Origin: Rheinheimera aquimaris
GTDB taxonomy: Bacteria > Pseudomonadota > Gammaproteobacteria > Enterobacterales > Alteromonadaceae
Assembly: GCF_020531985.1 (NCBI RefSeq)
Contig: NZ_JAJAVQ010000001.1
Location: 496,001 to 560,000, forward strand
Direction: 5' to 3'
Length of the DNA: 64,000 bases
Below are positions 27,475 to 35,711 of the stretch, piece after piece. The notes beneath the pieces are model-generated. The model saw nothing but the letters and a program-made list of their open reading frames with translations, did not search any database and was not told the origin of the DNA. The translations under genes and the position numbers were made by a program. Position 1 is the stretch's first letter. Each line of letters starts with the position of its first letter.

Positions 27475-28110
27475 ATGAACAAACAAAAACGTATAGAAAT
27501 ATTAAGCCGGCTGCGCGAAGCAAACCCGGAGCCTACGACAGAGCTTGAATACAGCTCGCCTTTTGAATTGCTGATTGCGGTTTTACTGTCAGCACAAGCC
27601 ACAGATGTCGGAGTCAATAAAGCCACCAGACACCTGTTTCCGGCAGCCAGAACGCCACAGGCTATGCTGGATTTAGGCGTGGACGGCGTTAAACATTATA
27701 TTAAAACCATTGGCTTATTTAATACCAAAGCCGAAAACGTCATTAAAACCTGCCGTATTCTGGTAGAGCAGCATGGTGGTGAGGTTCCCGAGAACCGCGA
27801 AGCTTTAGAGGCCCTACCGGGCGTTGGCCGTAAAACGGCTAACGTGGTGCTCAATACCGCGTTTCGCTGGCCTACCATAGCAGTCGATACACACATTTTC
27901 CGTGTATCTAACCGCACCAAACTGGCACCGGGCAAAAACGTCGATGAAGTCGAGCAGAAGTTGCTTAAAGTGGTACCAAGTGAGTTTAAACTCGACGTTC
28001 ACCACTGGCTTATACTGCACGGCCGCTATACCTGCGTGGCACGCAAGCCACGCTGCGGCAGCTGTATTATTGAAGACTTGTGTGAGTTTAAAGAAAAGAC
28101 TGAAGACTAA
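27475..28110 (+). CDS. nth: Endonuclease III (DNA glycosylase/AP lyase)
   Basis: This 211-residue base-excision repair enzyme removes oxidised pyrimidines. The helix-hairpin-helix LPGVGRKTAN contains catalytic Lys120. Asp138 is in VDTH. The C-terminal 4Fe-4S cluster is C-x6-C-x2-C-x5-C (CVARKPRCGSCIIEDLC). The length equals the E. coli enzyme. It is the last gene of the rsx operon. A diverged second copy of its last ~78 codons lies 5.7 kb downstream (33840-34082), on the far side of an AT-richer block, so its 3' end appears to have been a site of insertion or replacement. Confidence 0.97.
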   Translation: MNKQKRIEILSRLREANPEPTTELEYSSPFELLIAVLLSAQATDVGVNKATRHLFPAARTPQAMLDLGVDGVKHYIKTIGLFNTKAENVIKTCRILVEQHGGEVPENREALEALPGVGRKTANVVLNTAFRWPTIAVDTHIFRVSNRTKLAPGKNVDEVEQKLLKVVPSEFKLDVHHWLILHGRYTCVARKPRCGSCIIEDLCEFKEKTED

Positions 28111-28116
28111 AGACTA

Positions 28117-28632
28117 ATGGCAGAAATGGACTTAAATGTTGCTGATGAAAGCTCATTACTAAAAGAAACGAAAAGCTTGTTACGCTCATTTCGATCCCCT
28201 TTATTTATATCCGGTGTGATTTTGGGCGCTGGATCCACATGGAGCATAACTCATTTAATTATGAACATACTCCATGAAGCTTCGCTTTCTGAATTCAGAA
28301 CAAAATACGAGATTTCAATGTCAGAATTTAACGTAGAGGTCATGAGTAAAGACGAGGAGCTAAAAAGACAAAAATGGGAATACTCCAAACTCACATCAGA
28401 TTTCGAAGGGTTGAATAAGTCTTTCAATGAGCTTAGCAACAAATACAAAAGCGCTCTGGATTTTCATTACAACTACTGTAAAGAACAAGTAAGAAGCGTT
28501 AAGCTTTCACACTCTGCATATCAGAGCATGAAGCAAGCTATTCAATTTGACACACCTCAATCGCCGATTGAACATGCTCTTTACAATGTTTATACCTTAG
28601 CTGAAAAATGTGTGAACCGATTCGAAAATTAA
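28117..28632 (+). CDS. One-TM coiled-coil protein, function unknown
   Basis: This 171-residue protein has a charged N-terminus (1-26), one hydrophobic helix (~28-52), a long Glu/Lys/Ser-rich helix with coiled-coil character (~58-112) and a short C-terminal domain. I recognise no family. The ATG lies 6 bases after the nth stop, so it can be read from the rsx-nth transcript. The sequence is much more AT-rich than nth and uses A-ending codons, in line with foreign origin. A start at Met4 (28126) is possible. It ends in a perfect hairpin facing the convergent NACHT gene. It may be an accessory of that gene or a bystander. Confidence 0.6.
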   Translation: MAEMDLNVADESSLLKETKSLLRSFRSPLFISGVILGAGSTWSITHLIMNILHEASLSEFRTKYEISMSEFNVEVMSKDEELKRQKWEYSKLTSDFEGLNKSFNELSNKYKSALDFHYNYCKEQVRSVKLSHSAYQSMKQAIQFDTPQSPIEHALYNVYTLAEKCVNRFEN

Positions 28633-28711: not shown

Positions 28712-31700
28712 CTAATGAATTGGTCCTGCTAGAACATCAAACAGAGAGTGAACCACCGGTCTTACAAAGTCGGATACTGCATCATATGCACTGGCCGGAA
28801 TAACATTAGTAATGTTCCTCTCGTTAAGTAAATGCTGGCAGAGTTTCTGTGTTTGTTCATCAAGTTTACCGGTAGATGCTAAATAGCGGGAGAAACTCGA
28901 AATCTCACTTTCAGTCGGGTTTGATGCTAAACACATTCTAATCAGATCGACAAAATCTCCGTCACTCCCGAGTCGAGATTTGAGGGCAAAGTTAATCCTA
29001 TCCTGAAAATCCCACAACGAATGACTGGAACGATTTATCATTTTTCTAACAAGAACTTCTAACTCACTGCTATCAAAGCGCGATGCAGCTAGAATAATAG
29101 ACGGAGCATAATTTTCCGATGTGTTCGCTTCGCTTAGAATCTGTTCGACGACTTTATCCAGACATGCATTTTGCGGATCATAGACTGCCATTGCCACAAC
29201 ACCATGTCGGAAATTACTATCCTTTAGCACCTTCTGAAGCTTATTTGATAACTCCACATCACCGCCGAATTGCTCGCTTAAAATATAAGATGCTTCAAAA
29301 TAGCTTTGATAGGCTGATAATGAGCCACGGCTCCGTTGATCCTCAAAGTTAGTGACACCTAATAAGCAATGCTGTAAGAGCAAATCACTTTTTGGAAGTT
29401 CTTTGGCAAGTGCTTTCAACTCTTGCATTTCTAGGCATCTCGTAGTGCTTGCACAGTTTTCAATAAATCTGTTTCGTAATGAAGGACTAACGGAAATATA
29501 TGGAGATACCTTGGCCCAGAAATTAGTGTCTGAATCCAAATGATTTAATCTGGAAATGAGTTGCCCATCAAAGTTTTTATCAAGCTCTTCCCAGTGCTCA
29601 ACCACCAGCCTAAGCAGAGCTTGAGAAGTTCGATCATAACCTCCTAAGGAAATATTTAAAGGCTTATTATTCCATTCAAGAGGCACGAATTGTTTTGTAG
29701 CACCATAAGTTATCAACCCCGCAAAAGCTGCAGCTCGGCGTTCTTGATTATCATGCCCTACTGCATTTGCATCTAGAAGTAATTCATTTATCACTTTTTC
29801 ACGTTCATTATCAGTAGGATATAGTGCCTGATAATTTTTTATAGCACCTTGAACTTTTAGTGGACCATCAACTTCATTATCATATCTTCCTAGAATTTCC
29901 TTCGCTGTATCATTTCGATCAAACTCATTTGATGCAGCATCAATGATTTGCTGCCGCATAGTTGCTGTTAGTGAACCAACTTGTTCAGCAATTTTGCTCA
30001 GGATATTTTGGTCATCGCGATATACAGAGGCTATTAAAGCAAGAGGTGGATTGCGTTTGGCGAGCTTAGACAAAGCATAATCTTTTATTAAAGGCTCATC
30101 AGGGCTTAGTGTAATCAGGCCATTCGAGCCAGAGAATCCACTCTCTGTTTCAGAAAGCACTTTATCTAGTAACACACCAACAATGCTTTTGTCTGCGATG
30201 ATGTTCAACTGGGCGAATGCGGAGATCAGAAGATCGTTTCTGACTTTTATATTGTCTTTTATTATAGTCTGAAGTTCCTCAATACATTCTTCAGGGCCAA
30301 GCATTTTAGGGTACAGGCTAACTAAATGTTGCTTTCGTTCATTAGGCCATTTAAGAACCTCTTGAACTAGCTCGCTTACCTCTGGATCACCAGTCGTCCA
30401 ACTGTTTAGCAATGGTGCTAAGCACCAGAAACTCGTAAAATCTTTGGAATTCCTCACTTTATCGAGAAGATGCTGTTTGATGCGAGGATCTTTGATTTTA
30501 CTGTAGACAGATTGCAATAAATATTCATAGTGATCCATCTTACCCGATATCAAAGTGAGAATAATTTTCTCACGAACTTCTTTGTTAACTTCAGCAAATT
30601 TTAACAACCATTCCCAATGCATTCCAAACATCATGATGAATGGATAATCTGACTCGAACTCCCGTAAAATCCAATCAAAGAAAACAGGATTGTTAATATC
30701 ACTATTTATCAAATAATTAATGGCGACTGCCTCTTCAATTTGGTCGTCATCAGCAACAGTTTTATTTAAAACATCAAGACATTTATTTATGATATAAGCA
30801 TTATTCTTCCATCCCTGCACAAAGCACTCACTAAGCAAATCTCTCAGTTTGTAATTTACTCCGCTATGCCTACTCGCAAATCTGAGCAGAGTTTCCAGAT
30901 CTGTATCTAAGTGAAGGCCTAGTTGTACCTTGCACCAAATACTGCTTAACTGAATTGCTTTGTCCTTTGAAGCTAAAGCACTGTTTATAAAATCTACTAA
31001 TAAGGGATTATTCGACCAACCGACTGTCAGTGTCTCTAAAGTTATGCCAACAACAAGCAAATCCGAATCACCTCGAAGTAAAGATATCAACCATCTTTCA
31101 ACTCCAGGATCTCCTTTGTACACAATCGCGAGAGTGCGAGCAGCAGCACGAGAGTTAAGAACATTATCATCCTTCATACCATGCTTTAAAATATTGAGCA
31201 GTATTTCTGAACGAGACCAATTCGATAACGCTCTATAAAAGTCCTGTAAGTATTCTGCACTTCTAATTCCCCAGCGACTGATATTATCGGACGTCTTATT
31301 TCTGAGGGTAGGATTATAAACCCCTTCCAGAGCCGCAGCTAAGTGTGCATTTCGTTCACCAATCCAGCCAGCACCGGCAATTATTTCAAAACTACGTTCA
31401 GCAAGTTTACTGGCTGTCGGTTTATTTATTTCAGCGCCACTAAACACCACATCCGCTAGAAGTAAACGCCTCTGCAGAGCTCCAACAGCGTCAGTTTCTG
31501 GCTCGTCAATAACTCTAACAATTTGTTCGGCTTCGGACCTTCTATTATTTCTAGCAATCAAATCTCCGAATACACTTCTCCAACGATGGTTGCTCGCATT
31601 TGTTCGCACAAACTCTAAAATACGCTCTAACGGCCAGCCATGAATATGAACCGAAGCCAAATATTCTTCCAGACTTGCATGCACAAACCCTATCTCTTCG

Positions 31701-33613
31701 CGTCCTTTCTCTACAAGTAACCCCATCGTCTCTGAATTAACGGCGAGAATTTCGTTAGCTACTTCAGCTGCTTCCCTAGGGGTGTAGCAGAACCCCTCCG
31801 GATCAGTGAGAAAAGACTTTATACATTTCCGGGCTGATTGGATGGGATATCCTGCATCAGCCCCTTTGGTGCGGATCTCATAAGCAAGCGCCGCCAGCGC
31901 TTCACGGCGAACATCAGTTGACGCTGCTGAAGAAAATCGAGGGACCACATCGCCAGCTGCAGTTGCCCTGCTAGAAGGATGAAGTTCTAACAAAAGCTCC
32001 GTTAATTGGCTCAGAGCTTGTACTTTATTTATTGGCAAAACTAGCTGACGGACAGCTAGTGCAATCAGCCCTAATAACAAAAGCGGCGTTTCCGCTAATG
32101 TTGCCAACCCCCTTCCTTTATTCAGCTCTTGAAAAAATCGATTTGTCTGCCAGAGCACAGAATCTTCATGAGCAGCCAGATCATTGTGTCGACCAACATT
32201 TCGCGAGAACCAAATGGTTGCTATTTCTCTTTGCTGCATTTTCGATAAAGGAGCTAATTGACCCACTACCCAATCGTCAGGGATACCTCCGATTTTCGCA
32301 AGTCCACCAGGGCGAGCACTAACAACAACTGGAATACTATGTGCAGATACTATAGTCAACATTGTCTGCAAAGTGGTTCGCGCCGCCTGTTCATTAGCCC
32401 ACTCGTCAAGCCCATCAACAAACAGTACCACACGTGACTCATCAATAGCTTGATCTATCAAAGTTACCAAATCTGTAGTTAGCTGCTGCTGCCATGTCGC
32501 TCGAAGTAAATCTTTAATGCCTACCGCTTCTGCACTGGCCTCAGTAAGCCGTACCCATTTGGCAAATGAGATAAATAAAGGTAAGTGACGGCCCCATTTT
32601 TTGGCAACGTCAGTAAACCGCTGCTGTTGACCCAGTAGATCAAGCGCCAGGCACCTGAGTACGGTGCTTTTGCCAGTCCCAGCATGACCAATTACTGCAA
32701 TTTGATCAGATTCAGCTAGCCAGTTTAAGATCGAGGTTCGGCGATACTGCTCAGTTTGGCGACTTTCTTCATTTTTAATCTGTGAGAGTATTTCGGCCCG
32801 TTGAGGTTCATGCGTAGATGCACTTAACCCAATTTCTTGTTTTTTCGTTAGATGATTTACTACGCTTTCTTTCAGCAAAACATCTGGAGCAGAAAAACGC
32901 TTTAACAGAGAAATAGGCTCATGACGCTGATCGGAAAATGGTGTTGGCGCGTTTACGGGCATTTTATCAAGAAGTTCAAATCCAGCTTGATAAACTCGTT
33001 GCAACTGCGCTCTAACCTTTTGGAACTCGGCTCCATCCAATTTTAGAAGAAGGTCTTTACTTACCGTATCCCCAAAAAACTGTTGCGCACATTCTCGTCC
33101 AAAAAATTCTAAAACAATGTCAGGATGACTGCGCAAGACAGTGCATAAATCATGGCCTCCAAGTACCCTTAGAACTAGGCCTTGGGCCCTAAAAACCTTT
33201 GCTTGCTCTTCAATTTCATTCTGTAAGTGGACATCATCTACAGGACATTGCACTACAATGAAAAACTCGTCTGTTTTATGTACCCACTCCCCTAATAGAA
33301 AAGTCGAGCAAGCTTTTTTCAGGTCAGTTTCGGAGTACTTTTTATAACACTTCGCTTGCCAAGTGTTGTACCTGCTGTTGCGCTTTCTAGCAAAAATATC
33401 TATTCCCTGTTGAGCTTGCCCGGATCTGCCATACAAACTATGGAATTCAACATCAGCATCTTTGCCAGCTATTCGATAACACAGTTTTTCAAAGTTCTCC
33501 CAGCGCAACTCATGGAAAGGCAATGACTGCAAAACTGTTTGAACCGGGACGAAAGGTGGTACATGATTTACTGGCGAAGTAATCGCTGTTTCTATCGTAT
33601 TTACCGAATCCAT
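28712..33613 (-). CDS. Nuclease-NACHT STAND protein, putative antiphage (Avs/bNACHT-like)
   Basis: This protein has 1633 residues. Residues ~32-175 form an Mrr-like PD-(D/E)xK nuclease: the WENFEKLC helix, then GID (Asp72) and WQAK (Gln86-Lys88). Residues ~300-520 form a NACHT ATPase: Walker A GHAGTGKST (309-317), Walker B LFVDGLDE (Asp400, Glu404), VVVSARPGG (~430) and LAETPLLLLGLIAL (~505-519). The stretch FVHASLEEYLA (643-653) is the usual end marker of NACHT modules. The remaining ~950 residues are helical, HEAT/TPR-like repeats that could sense a trigger. In Avs proteins a bound phage protein drives oligomerisation and activates the N-terminal nuclease. AGGAG lies 12 bases before the ATG; the ~225 bases upstream hold its promoter. 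The architecture is seen; the antiphage role is inferred. Confidence 0.85.
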   Translation of the reverse strand: MDSVNTIETAITSPVNHVPPFVPVQTVLQSLPFHELRWENFEKLCYRIAGKDADVEFHSLYGRSGQAQQGIDIFARKRNSRYNTWQAKCYKKYSETDLKKACSTFLLGEWVHKTDEFFIVVQCPVDDVHLQNEIEEQAKVFRAQGLVLRVLGGHDLCTVLRSHPDIVLEFFGRECAQQFFGDTVSKDLLLKLDGAEFQKVRAQLQRVYQAGFELLDKMPVNAPTPFSDQRHEPISLLKRFSAPDVLLKESVVNHLTKKQEIGLSASTHEPQRAEILSQIKNEESRQTEQYRRTSILNWLAESDQIAVIGHAGTGKSTVLRCLALDLLGQQQRFTDVAKKWGRHLPLFISFAKWVRLTEASAEAVGIKDLLRATWQQQLTTDLVTLIDQAIDESRVVLFVDGLDEWANEQAARTTLQTMLTIVSAHSIPVVVSARPGGLAKIGGIPDDWVVGQLAPLSKMQQREIATIWFSRNVGRHNDLAAHEDSVLWQTNRFFQELNKGRGLATLAETPLLLLGLIALAVRQLVLPINKVQALSQLTELLLELHPSSRATAAGDVVPRFSSAASTDVRREALAALAYEIRTKGADAGYPIQSARKCIKSFLTDPEGFCYTPREAAEVANEILAVNSETMGLLVEKGREEIGFVHASLEEYLASVHIHGWPLERILEFVRTNASNHRWRSVFGDLIARNNRRSEAEQIVRVIDEPETDAVGALQRRLLLADVVFSGAEINKPTASKLAERSFEIIAGAGWIGERNAHLAAALEGVYNPTLRNKTSDNISRWGIRSAEYLQDFYRALSNWSRSEILLNILKHGMKDDNVLNSRAAARTLAIVYKGDPGVERWLISLLRGDSDLLVVGITLETLTVGWSNNPLLVDFINSALASKDKAIQLSSIWCKVQLGLHLDTDLETLLRFASRHSGVNYKLRDLLSECFVQGWKNNAYIINKCLDVLNKTVADDDQIEEAVAINYLINSDINNPVFFDWILREFESDYPFIMMFGMHWEWLLKFAEVNKEVREKIILTLISGKMDHYEYLLQSVYSKIKDPRIKQHLLDKVRNSKDFTSFWCLAPLLNSWTTGDPEVSELVQEVLKWPNERKQHLVSLYPKMLGPEECIEELQTIIKDNIKVRNDLLISAFAQLNIIADKSIVGVLLDKVLSETESGFSGSNGLITLSPDEPLIKDYALSKLAKRNPPLALIASVYRDDQNILSKIAEQVGSLTATMRQQIIDAASNEFDRNDTAKEILGRYDNEVDGPLKVQGAIKNYQALYPTDNEREKVINELLLDANAVGHDNQERRAAAFAGLITYGATKQFVPLEWNNKPLNISLGGYDRTSQALLRLVVEHWEELDKNFDGQLISRLNHLDSDTNFWAKVSPYISVSPSLRNRFIENCASTTRCLEMQELKALAKELPKSDLLLQHCLLGVTNFEDQRSRGSLSAYQSYFEASYILSEQFGGDVELSNKLQKVLKDSNFRHGVVAMAVYDPQNACLDKVVEQILSEANTSENYAPSIILAASRFDSSELEVLVRKMINRSSHSLWDFQDRINFALKSRLGSDGDFVDLIRMCLASNPTESEISSFSRYLASTGKLDEQTQKLCQHLLNERNITNVIPASAYDAVSDFVRPVVHSLFDVLAGPIH

Positions 33614-33839
33614 AATTGGGTGTAGCTCCTGTTACAACGATTCATCATTCGAGTAGTCCAAGGGGGCAATGCCATTTTGTGATAATACAATAGCGAATTT
33701 GAATCGCCTCTGCTATTACAAACATATTTGGCAACATTTGGAGCAATTACAGGGTTGAATTATGAACGCCCGCTATAGTGGTTAAAAGCCGTCTTTCTGG
33801 CGCAACATATGTTAACACCTGCTACCGCACTGCGATATT

Positions 33840-34082
33840 TTGGGGCCCACTATTACTGTGGATACGCAGATCTTTAGCGTGTCAAACCGTACCAAACTGG
33901 CACCGGGTAAAAACGTTGATGAAGTCGAGCAAAAGCTGCTAAAAGTGGTCCCAAGCGAGTTTAAACTCGACGTACATCACTGGCTGATACTGCACGGCCG
34001 CTATACCTGCGTGGCACGTAAGCCCAAATGCGGCTCTTGTATTATTGAAGATCTGTGCGAGTTTAAAGACAAAACTGAATAG
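33840..34082 (+). pseudogene. Truncated second copy of the nth 3' end
   Basis: The frame from PTITVDTQIFSVSNRTKLAP to the stop aligns without gaps to residues ~133-210 of the intact nth. By hand count there are about 38 differences in roughly 234 bases, mostly third positions. All four cluster cysteines remain, but the VDTH motif is VDTQ, and the HhH motif and catalytic lysine are absent. No start codon or ribosome site is evident; the frame opens with TTG. Degraded homology may extend some 30 bases further upstream with a frameshift. It marks the right edge of the inserted block and is not expected to be functional. Confidence 0.85.
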
Positions 34083-34127: not shown

Positions 34128-35042
34128 CTAATGGTTGCGCCAGCGAAGCACCAACGCCGCTAATGCCACAATAATCATACCGGCAACCAAACCGGTAATA
34201 CCGTCAACCAGCAACGATGTGATCACTGCAAAAGCCGGAGCCGCCTGTTGCACCATCAACGACAGATGATGAAGCACATCAATGTTGTGCGACAGTATAC
34301 CGCCGCCAACCAAAAACATGGCAATGGTGCCGATAACCCCAAGCGCTTTCATTAATATAGGCGCCGCGATTAACAACCCGCGTCCCAAAGCACGTTGCAG
34401 ATTATTCCACTTACCGCTGACTGCTTTTCTAAGCATATATAAGCCGGCGTCATCCATTTTTACGATTGCCGCCACCAGGCCATAAACCCCGATGGTAATA
34501 GCAATACAAACTACGCTTAACACACCCAGTTGCGTAATTAAATCAGCCGCTTTTACGCTACCAAGTACTATCACCACTATTTCTGCGGAAAGAATAAAGT
34601 CAGTTCGGATAGCGCCTTTTATTTTCTTTTTCTCTAATGCCACTATATCAACGCTGTCATCTGCCAACGCCTTTAGCCTGGCTTGCCGCTCAGCTGGCGG
34701 CGCGTGCAGAAAAAAGCGATGTACAACTTTCTCTGCGCCCTCATAACACAGATATAAACCGCCCAGAATAAGTAACAGTGTAATGAGCACCGGTATAAAA
34801 GCACTGATTAACAATGCGGCAGGAATTAAAATGAGTTTATTGACAAAGGAGCCTTTTGCTACCGCCCAAACCACCGGAATTTCCCGTTCTGGTTTAACAC
34901 CCGTTACCTGATCAGCATTGAGTGCCAGATCATCACCCAGCACACCTGCTGTTTTCTTCACTGCGACCTTCGACAACACAGCAACATCATCAAGCAAGGT
35001 GGCGATATCATCAATAAGGGCCAGTAGATTAGCTGCAGCCAC
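34128..35042 (-). CDS. DUF808 family inner-membrane protein (YedI-like)
   Basis: This 304-residue protein has about six to eight hydrophobic helices. The N-terminal signature (LLALIDDIATLLDDVAVLSKVAVKKTAGVLGDDLA in outline, residues ~6-40) and GLYLCYEGAEKVVH are characteristic of DUF808/YedI proteins. The function is not established. The gene converges on the nth remnant and belongs to the native flank. Confidence 0.85.
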   Translation of the reverse strand: MAAANLLALIDDIATLLDDVAVLSKVAVKKTAGVLGDDLALNADQVTGVKPEREIPVVWAVAKGSFVNKLILIPAALLISAFIPVLITLLLILGGLYLCYEGAEKVVHRFFLHAPPAERQARLKALADDSVDIVALEKKKIKGAIRTDFILSAEIVVIVLGSVKAADLITQLGVLSVVCIAITIGVYGLVAAIVKMDDAGLYMLRKAVSGKWNNLQRALGRGLLIAAPILMKALGVIGTIAMFLVGGGILSHNIDVLHHLSLMVQQAAPAFAVITSLLVDGITGLVAGMIIVALAALVLRWRNH

Positions 35043-35309
35043 AAACCATCCTTTCGTTATTTATAAAAATCTCAGCATACTGGTGTCAGATAAATTTGTA
35101 CATGCCGTGCATGCACTGTTGCAATTCCGCGCCTGCAACCCGGTTATCTTGTTTAAGCATGTCATATGTTAAGCGACAGAAAACGGCCTGATATGGTAAC
35201 ATCTGCCGCTGTACTGCCAATGCTGGCCAGGCAACAAAGCTATTAAGGCCGGCATTTTGGTATCTAATTGCTTTGCAAGTCCCGCAACAAAACTGACGAG
35301 GAGCACGTT

Positions 35310-35711
35310 ATGAGAATGCTGCACACTATGCTGCGCGTAGGTGATCTGGACAAATCTATTGCTTTTTACACTGAAGTGCTGGGTATGAAACTACTGCGTC
35401 AGTCTGAAAACACTGAATACAAATATACGCTAGCTTTCGTAGGTTACGGCGACGAGAGCGAGAATACTGTACTGGAGCTGACGTACAACTGGGGCACCGA
35501 CAGCTACGACTTAGGTAATGCTTTTGGCCATATTGCACTGGAAGTTGAAAACGTTTACGACGCTTGCGATAAGATACGTGCCAAAGGTGGTGTAATAAGC
35601 CGTGAACCTGGCCCGGTAAAAGGCGGTACTACAGAAATAGCCTTTGTGCGTGATCCTGATAACTATGCGATAGAGCTGATCCAGAAAAAAGACCGTTACG
35701 ACACATTGTAA
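35310..35711 (+). CDS. gloA: Lactoylglutathione lyase (glyoxalase I)
   Basis: This 133-residue metalloenzyme isomerises the methylglyoxal-glutathione hemithioacetal to S-lactoylglutathione. All four metal ligands fall at the E. coli positions: His5, Glu56, His74 and Glu122. GAGGAG lies 8 bases before the ATG at 35310, so the longer frame from 35268 is rejected. It is transcribed alone, with a terminator immediately downstream. Confidence 0.96.

Follow-up and report, generated by a model that had tools for sequence, protein, structure and literature searches.

A 64,000-nucleotide stretch of Rheinheimera aquimaris DNA (hereafter the window) raises the question of what is done by a protein of 1633 residues, which is encoded on the reverse strand (28712..33613) by an intact, ATG-initiated open reading frame (ORF) and joins an Mrr-type nuclease, a NACHT ATPase and a HEAT-type solenoid. 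An earlier note, made from the sequence alone, had proposed this order of nuclease, NACHT and long helical repeats and had seen in it a candidate antiphage STAND protein. The architecture was borne out by Pfam searches, an alignment of full-length proteins and structural models, and the antiphage proposal is supported by the neighbours of two of the five close homologues, a patchy distribution and mobility. The protein is an intact bacterial relative of the animal NLR immune sensors, and has a tripartite effector-NACHT-sensor architecture, with the C-terminus as the presumed sensor. We consider it probable that it functions as a single-gene bacterial NLR-type phage-defence protein.

The nucleotide-binding part, residues 282-470 (32204..32770, on the reverse strand like all parts of this gene), matches the Pfam NACHT model (PF05729) with an E-value of 1.2e-10 and 41.9 bits against a cut-off of 26.7, and the model is matched in 10/10 members of the family at E <= 0.1. 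Checking of the residues in the sequence placed the Walker A motif at residues 309-317 (32663-32689) and the Walker B motif at residues 397-405 (32399-32425), and the residues singled out in the earlier note (K88, K315, D400 and E404) stand where it had put them. The nucleotide-binding part is followed by a helical and winged-helix region comparable to the WHD/HD2 region of NLRs (residues 471-720; 31454..32203). The structural model of the NACHT module is NLR-like, and among the listed solved structures those of animal NLRs are the closest to the ATPase. A profile search against solved structures recovered chiefly P-loop ATPases and alphaRep HEAT designs, the NACHT part also giving weak matches to NOD2 and NLRC4; a sequence search of solved structures with the whole protein found no relative at E <= 1, the seven weak matches being ABC transporters and a synthase. 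In a NACHT tree of 18 rows the window protein and ten full-length homologues, one of them from IMG/VR and on a long branch, split with support 100/99 from seven other NACHT proteins, all found in this analysis and including no bNACHT-clade or Avs reference. By its sequence, the protein belongs, in the broad sense, to the bacterial NACHT (bNACHT or NLR-related) proteins. Its own genome may hold more NACHT-related candidates: a 461-codon frame (L002, C1:857239-857652), which was not included in the tree, has NACHT above cut-off, and a 910-codon open frame (L119, C1:950416-950679) has NA-iREase1 above cut-off.

The N-terminal domain (residues 31-190; 33044..33523) is predicted to be an Mrr/PD-(D/E)xK-type nuclease, and its residues E42, D72, Q86 and K88 are invariant in 10/10 full-length proteins. 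The GxD...QxK core proposed earlier is present in the sequence, with D72 completing a motif of the form expected for the catalytic site of Mrr-type (PD-(D/E)xK) nucleases. A single alignment of ten full-length proteins, the window's included (the IMG/VR homologue was aligned separately with five others), has eight residues unchanged throughout, namely D72, Q86, K88, G314, K315, S316, D400 and E404. D72 and K88 are kept in 14/14 of a wider nuclease set, and QxK becomes SxK in L086 and L087, both outside the family. The Pfam model Mrr_cat is just above cut-off in the full-length IMG/VR homologue. A related N-terminal nuclease is also found in other large proteins, from Rhodococcus opacus (L116:5920-9162), R. 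ruber (L117:261-3413) and Pseudomonas luteola (L118:5944-7929), the first two with Mrr_cat above cut-off; L086 and L087, frames of >2000 codons, have the same N-terminal nuclease stretch by tblastn or profile. Pfam searches at E <= 0.001 did not find NACHT in L116, L117 or L118, and covered L086 and L087 in part only. Since a related nuclease heads large proteins without a NACHT match, it looks like an effector module common to different proteins.

The C-terminal region (residues 721-1633; 28715..31453), which confirms the earlier expectation of a helical region of about 950 residues, is a HEAT-type alpha-solenoid by its structural model and by its matches to alphaRep HEAT profiles. The model of residues 690-1633 has 56 helices with a median every-second-helix spacing of 33 residues, and the region consists of antiparallel helix pairs, about 30-40 residues each and arranged in tandem, as in a HEAT-repeat solenoid. 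HEAT_2 of Pfam is found in 6/10 members at E <= 0.1 (best 7.5e-7) and is below cut-off in the window protein, whose 18 Pfam matches at E <= 1 include no NACHT-associated C-terminal model. Among close homologues the solenoid is the least conserved domain, with an identity of 0.57, the NACHT parts having about 0.85.

There are ten full-length homologues besides the window protein, five close and five distant, with identities down to 23% across the ten aligned together, and the whole architecture is conserved in distant bacteria. The close ones are 64-73% identical over their entire length and form a good set for mapping how the specificity of the solenoid sensor changes. Four of them, in Aeromonas bestiarum, Dickeya oryzae, Pseudomonas sp. 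Irchel 3H7 and Edaphovirga cremea, came from a scan of genome contigs; the fifth, at 67%, lies on an IncHI2A conjugative plasmid of Enterobacter hormaechei. The contig scan also gave a full-length homologue at 28% identity in Candidatus Thiosymbion oneisti and a C-terminal match of only 145 residues in Buttiauxella. Distant plasmid homologues at about 25% were found in Pantoea, Streptomyces and Deinococcus; a match on a plasmid of Lysinibacillus is scattered across many short ORFs. In Deinococcus aetherius (L013:7920-12787) a restriction endonuclease ORF and a NACHT ORF are annotated in different frames and the first departs from the family alignment partway, which suggests that this copy is broken. 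IMG/VR holds a 1630-residue homologue in two entries, L050 and L051, which are alike in length, coordinates and match and were treated as one; further scans gave no other relative. On that contig (L050:9774-16016) the NACHT homologue is directly followed by a 439-residue protein of leucine-rich repeats, the type of repeat that animal NLRs bear in cis.

Within the genus the NACHT gene is present in 1/31 genomes. Wider searches scored, for each genome, only the best two candidates of a first look, which makes their counts lower bounds: at E <= 1e-40 they recovered at least 3/394 genomes of the order (the window's own, one that appears to be the Aeromonas copy, and one with a 4.3-kb contig bearing a partial relative) and at least 1/398 of the phylum (the own genome), and at E <= 1e-20 at least 6/369 of the class, where, besides the own genome, three match the NACHT part only and two the nuclease part only. 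A tblastn search of 50,697 phage records gave no match to the protein at E <= 1e-5, and a 4-kb piece of the Enterobacter gene was unmatched, at blastn sensitivity, in 5,426 E. coli genomes. The tree of the close group departs from the host classification and pairs the Enterobacter plasmid copy with that of Aeromonas (91/91, under the star threshold of the tree tool), as expected from transfer between hosts. The GC content of the gene is 41.9% against 48.4% across the window, and the gene appears to have been acquired from elsewhere.

Signs of mobility and some defence genes accompany the close homologues. In Aeromonas the RADAR genes rdrA and rdrB lie about 4-9 kb downstream, with transposase-like ORFs in between (recognised by eye), and on the Enterobacter plasmid four TIR-annotated proteins and a CBASS-type phospholipase lie about 6-11 kb upstream, separated from the gene by IS transposases; the two TIR proteins scanned and the phospholipase match the ThsB and phospholipase-effector models of PADLOC. 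The Dickeya copy has an integrase-like ORF 4.3 kb upstream (by eye) and a neighbouring ATPase with HEC-04 as its best match (1e-31), the Pseudomonas copy a phage integrase about 5 kb upstream, and the Edaphovirga copy an adjoining transposase and, farther away, a helicase with restriction-type matches, the other genes tested there being of transport and metabolism.

In the window itself the gene lies between nth (27475-28110) and gloA (35268-35711), an interval that is an insertion hotspot in the genus: among the 31 genomes nth and gloA are adjacent in 10, lie 0.4 to 11.5 kb apart in 18, the window among them, and are at an unmeasurable distance in 3, and the order rnfE-nth is constant across the fetched loci having full nth. 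The 3' end of the intact nth (27869..28104, forward strand) recurs on the far side of the cargo as a second, partial copy (33844..34079, forward strand) that is 84% identical over 236 nt. Such a duplicated end is present in seven loci, the window and six others, and begins in each at nth position 388-396. Sixteen other cargo-bearing loci, a comparison that left out L079 (0.4 kb), have a long nth copy in six cases, short or degenerate pieces in four and none in six. The cargo varies by locus, with genes shared by L059 and L070 and by L057 and L055, the latter without an nth copy. Related stretches precede the copy in 5/7 loci (the window, L056, L057, L061 and L062), the pairwise matches spanning 34-85 nt apart from one of 317 nt, and L059 and L070 have another stretch in common at this point. 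An 18-nt sequence directly before the partial copy (33822..33839, forward strand) forms the core of the related stretches; G016, G030 and G009 have it, exactly or with 1-2 mismatches, ahead of their own partial copies. Allowing up to 2 mismatches it occurs at 18 places in the genus, 4 of them at nth copies; of the other 14, one has 1 mismatch and 13 have 2. A reversed control of the pattern gave 8 places; hence it is non-specific at 2 mismatches, and at 0-1 mismatches 3/4 places are at nth copies. The picture is compatible with foreign DNA having entered nth repeatedly at a single site, every insert carrying its own nth 3' end, with the seven cases not proven to be independent. No integrase-like gene was seen at the nth-gloA loci, nor did six integrase-like proteins of the own genome find a match there (tblastn, E <= 1e-3); the Phage_integrase matches of that genome lie outside nth-gloA, and a more distant integrase may still be present. 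A three-gene cargo recurs at L056:2190-5967, L068:8299-11967 and L065:6935-10645, its middle gene opening, by eye, with a KaiC-like P-loop sequence. A literature search on nth hotspots and Rheinheimera, confined to titles, found no paper titled on an nth hotspot. The nth-gloA interval would be a place to seek further exchangeable genes in the genus.

Two neighbours in the window were considered as partners. The first is a 171-residue ORF of the same insertion (28117..28632, forward strand), which starts 6 nt after the nth stop, looks hydrophobic near its N-terminus (judged by eye) and has sub-threshold Pfam matches of the coiled-coil type; a two-gene system was set aside, as this ORF is convergent with the NACHT gene, has no family above cut-off and no tblastn match at E <= 1e-3 at the other loci. 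The second, a DUF808 protein (34128-35042), was rejected as separate cargo that also occurs in L066, L069, L070 and L072 without a NACHT-gene match.

Based on these features we propose that the HEAT-type solenoid (residues 721-1633) would keep the NACHT module inactive, probably ADP-bound, in the resting state. The solenoid would be bound or acted on by a protein of the phage or by a host process that infection has disturbed. The NACHT module would thereupon exchange its nucleotide and form oligomers, in which the N-terminal Mrr-type nucleases come together. The gathered nucleases would then cut host and phage DNA and the infected cell would cease phage production, i.e. phages would most likely be stopped by the killing of infected cells. 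Several observations weigh against this proposal: 1) Mrr_cat_2 is weak in the window protein (E 0.017, 15.5 bits against a cut-off of 22) and matches 3/10 members at E <= 0.1, and the homologue L015 has no Mrr match at E <= 0.001. 2) The nuclease core, residues 52-91, was modelled at a predicted local distance difference test (pLDDT) score of <50 from an alignment of 7 sequences, and its profile match among solved enzymes, to LlaBIII, is weak (E 0.084). 3) The quicker divergence of the solenoid is also explicable by weaker constraint. 4) PADLOC matches at E <= 0.001 were obtained for 10/20 neighbours of the five close homologues (Enterobacter 4/4, Aeromonas 3/4, Dickeya 2/4, Edaphovirga 1/4, Pseudomonas 0/4), a mixed result from a hand-chosen sample of mostly larger ORFs, and hence no unbiased test of enrichment; part of these are general ATPase or helicase matches. 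5) The 171-residue ORF and the DUF808 protein, the two adjacent proteins scanned in the window, match no PADLOC defence model. 6) We know of no phage phenotype for any member.

The alternative that survives best, though improbable, is that the NACHT protein senses plasmids, other mobile DNA or host stress instead of phage; its nuclease would then degrade the invading plasmid or kill the cell. Homologues themselves lie on plasmids (Enterobacter, Pantoea, Streptomyces), where excluding competitors would pay; however, the systems near two homologues (RADAR, and the ThsB-type TIR with the CBASS-type effector) are generally known as antiphage systems. The guarding of a host process has to be reckoned with, since bNACHT25 senses indirectly through DnaJ (PMC12169576). 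It is very unlikely that the protein is a STAND regulator with a nuclease-like domain that is inactive or only binds nucleic acid, and with some other output: the weak profile score and poorly modelled fold noted above would agree with this, but D72, Q86 and K88 are invariant in 10/10 full-length proteins despite identities as low as 23%, and D72 and K88 throughout the wider set. Least likely of all is a passenger gene that is decaying and does nothing in this strain, as might be thought from an insertion present in one genome of the genus and from the Buttiauxella C-terminal remnant and two-ORF Deinococcus relative elsewhere, given that the ORF is intact through 1633 codons and retains all conserved catalytic residues. 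Returning to phage defence as the favoured function, we tentatively raise the further possibility that the protein represents an undescribed family of NLRs armed with a nuclease, in which a rapidly diverging HEAT-solenoid sensor reads a trigger other than terminase, portal, coat protein or DnaJ. Such a family would pass from one distant bacterium to another as exchangeable cargo of insertion hotspots, the nth 3' end among them.

How does the protein compare with known systems? Avs proteins, among which Avs4 has an Mrr-like nuclease, are one candidate group. Membership in them was rejected at the level of the Avs profiles that PADLOC 2.0.0 contains: among matches to E <= 1, no Avs model covers the ATPase or the sensor of the window protein, in agreement with the earlier note, which could not match its C-terminus to any described Avs or bNACHT clade. 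The sole Avs match is a weak one to Avs2 (E 6.6e-4, residues 35-104), inside the nuclease stretch; this pattern is repeated in the homologue L009 (E 1.1e-5, residues 49-143), and L014, L015 and L050 have no Avs match at E <= 0.1. The fold matches listed (50 rows per list) have no Avs-titled row, which excludes nothing. AVAST (Avs1-Avs4) likewise has the nuclease-STAND-repeat order and a presumed DNA-cutting output, with Avs1-4 cutting phage and host genomes once phage proteins are recognised (PMC12931631). The window protein differs from these in its NACHT-type ATPase, as well as in lacking an Avs model over ATPase or sensor.

The bNACHT clades, which reportedly originate with Kibby et al. 2023, offer a further parallel. 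The proteins bNACHT25 and bNACHT32 of clade 6 likewise join a PD-(D/E)XK nuclease, a central NACHT and a helical C-terminus in a single protein, and hence provide a direct precedent for the architecture; their activation leads to DNA degradation, and nuclease mutation abolishes protection (PMC12169576). Clade 6 bears an NCH1 C-terminus, whereas the window protein has about 910-950 residues of HEAT-type solenoid. NCH1 is not among its 18 Pfam matches at E <= 1 nor among the 25/27 families shown for the 10 members, in a Pfam copy that includes NA-iREase1 and NCAB2 models and in which the presence of NCH1 is unconfirmed. The systems newly validated with DefensePredictor also include NACHT or PD-(D/E)XK domains (PMC13092281). 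Animal NLRs such as NLRC4, NOD2 and NLRP3 carry CARD/PYD and leucine-rich repeats, in contrast to the nuclease effector and HEAT-type repeats of the window protein, with about 15% identity over the aligned part. No description of this family was seen among the open-licence papers listed, which is weak evidence. In the Pfam copy used, none of the curated C-terminal families associated with NACHT matches the sensor. The protein probably works like the nuclease-NLRs, and if it protects against phage it would add to the antiphage repertoire a nuclease-NLR family with a HEAT-type sensor.
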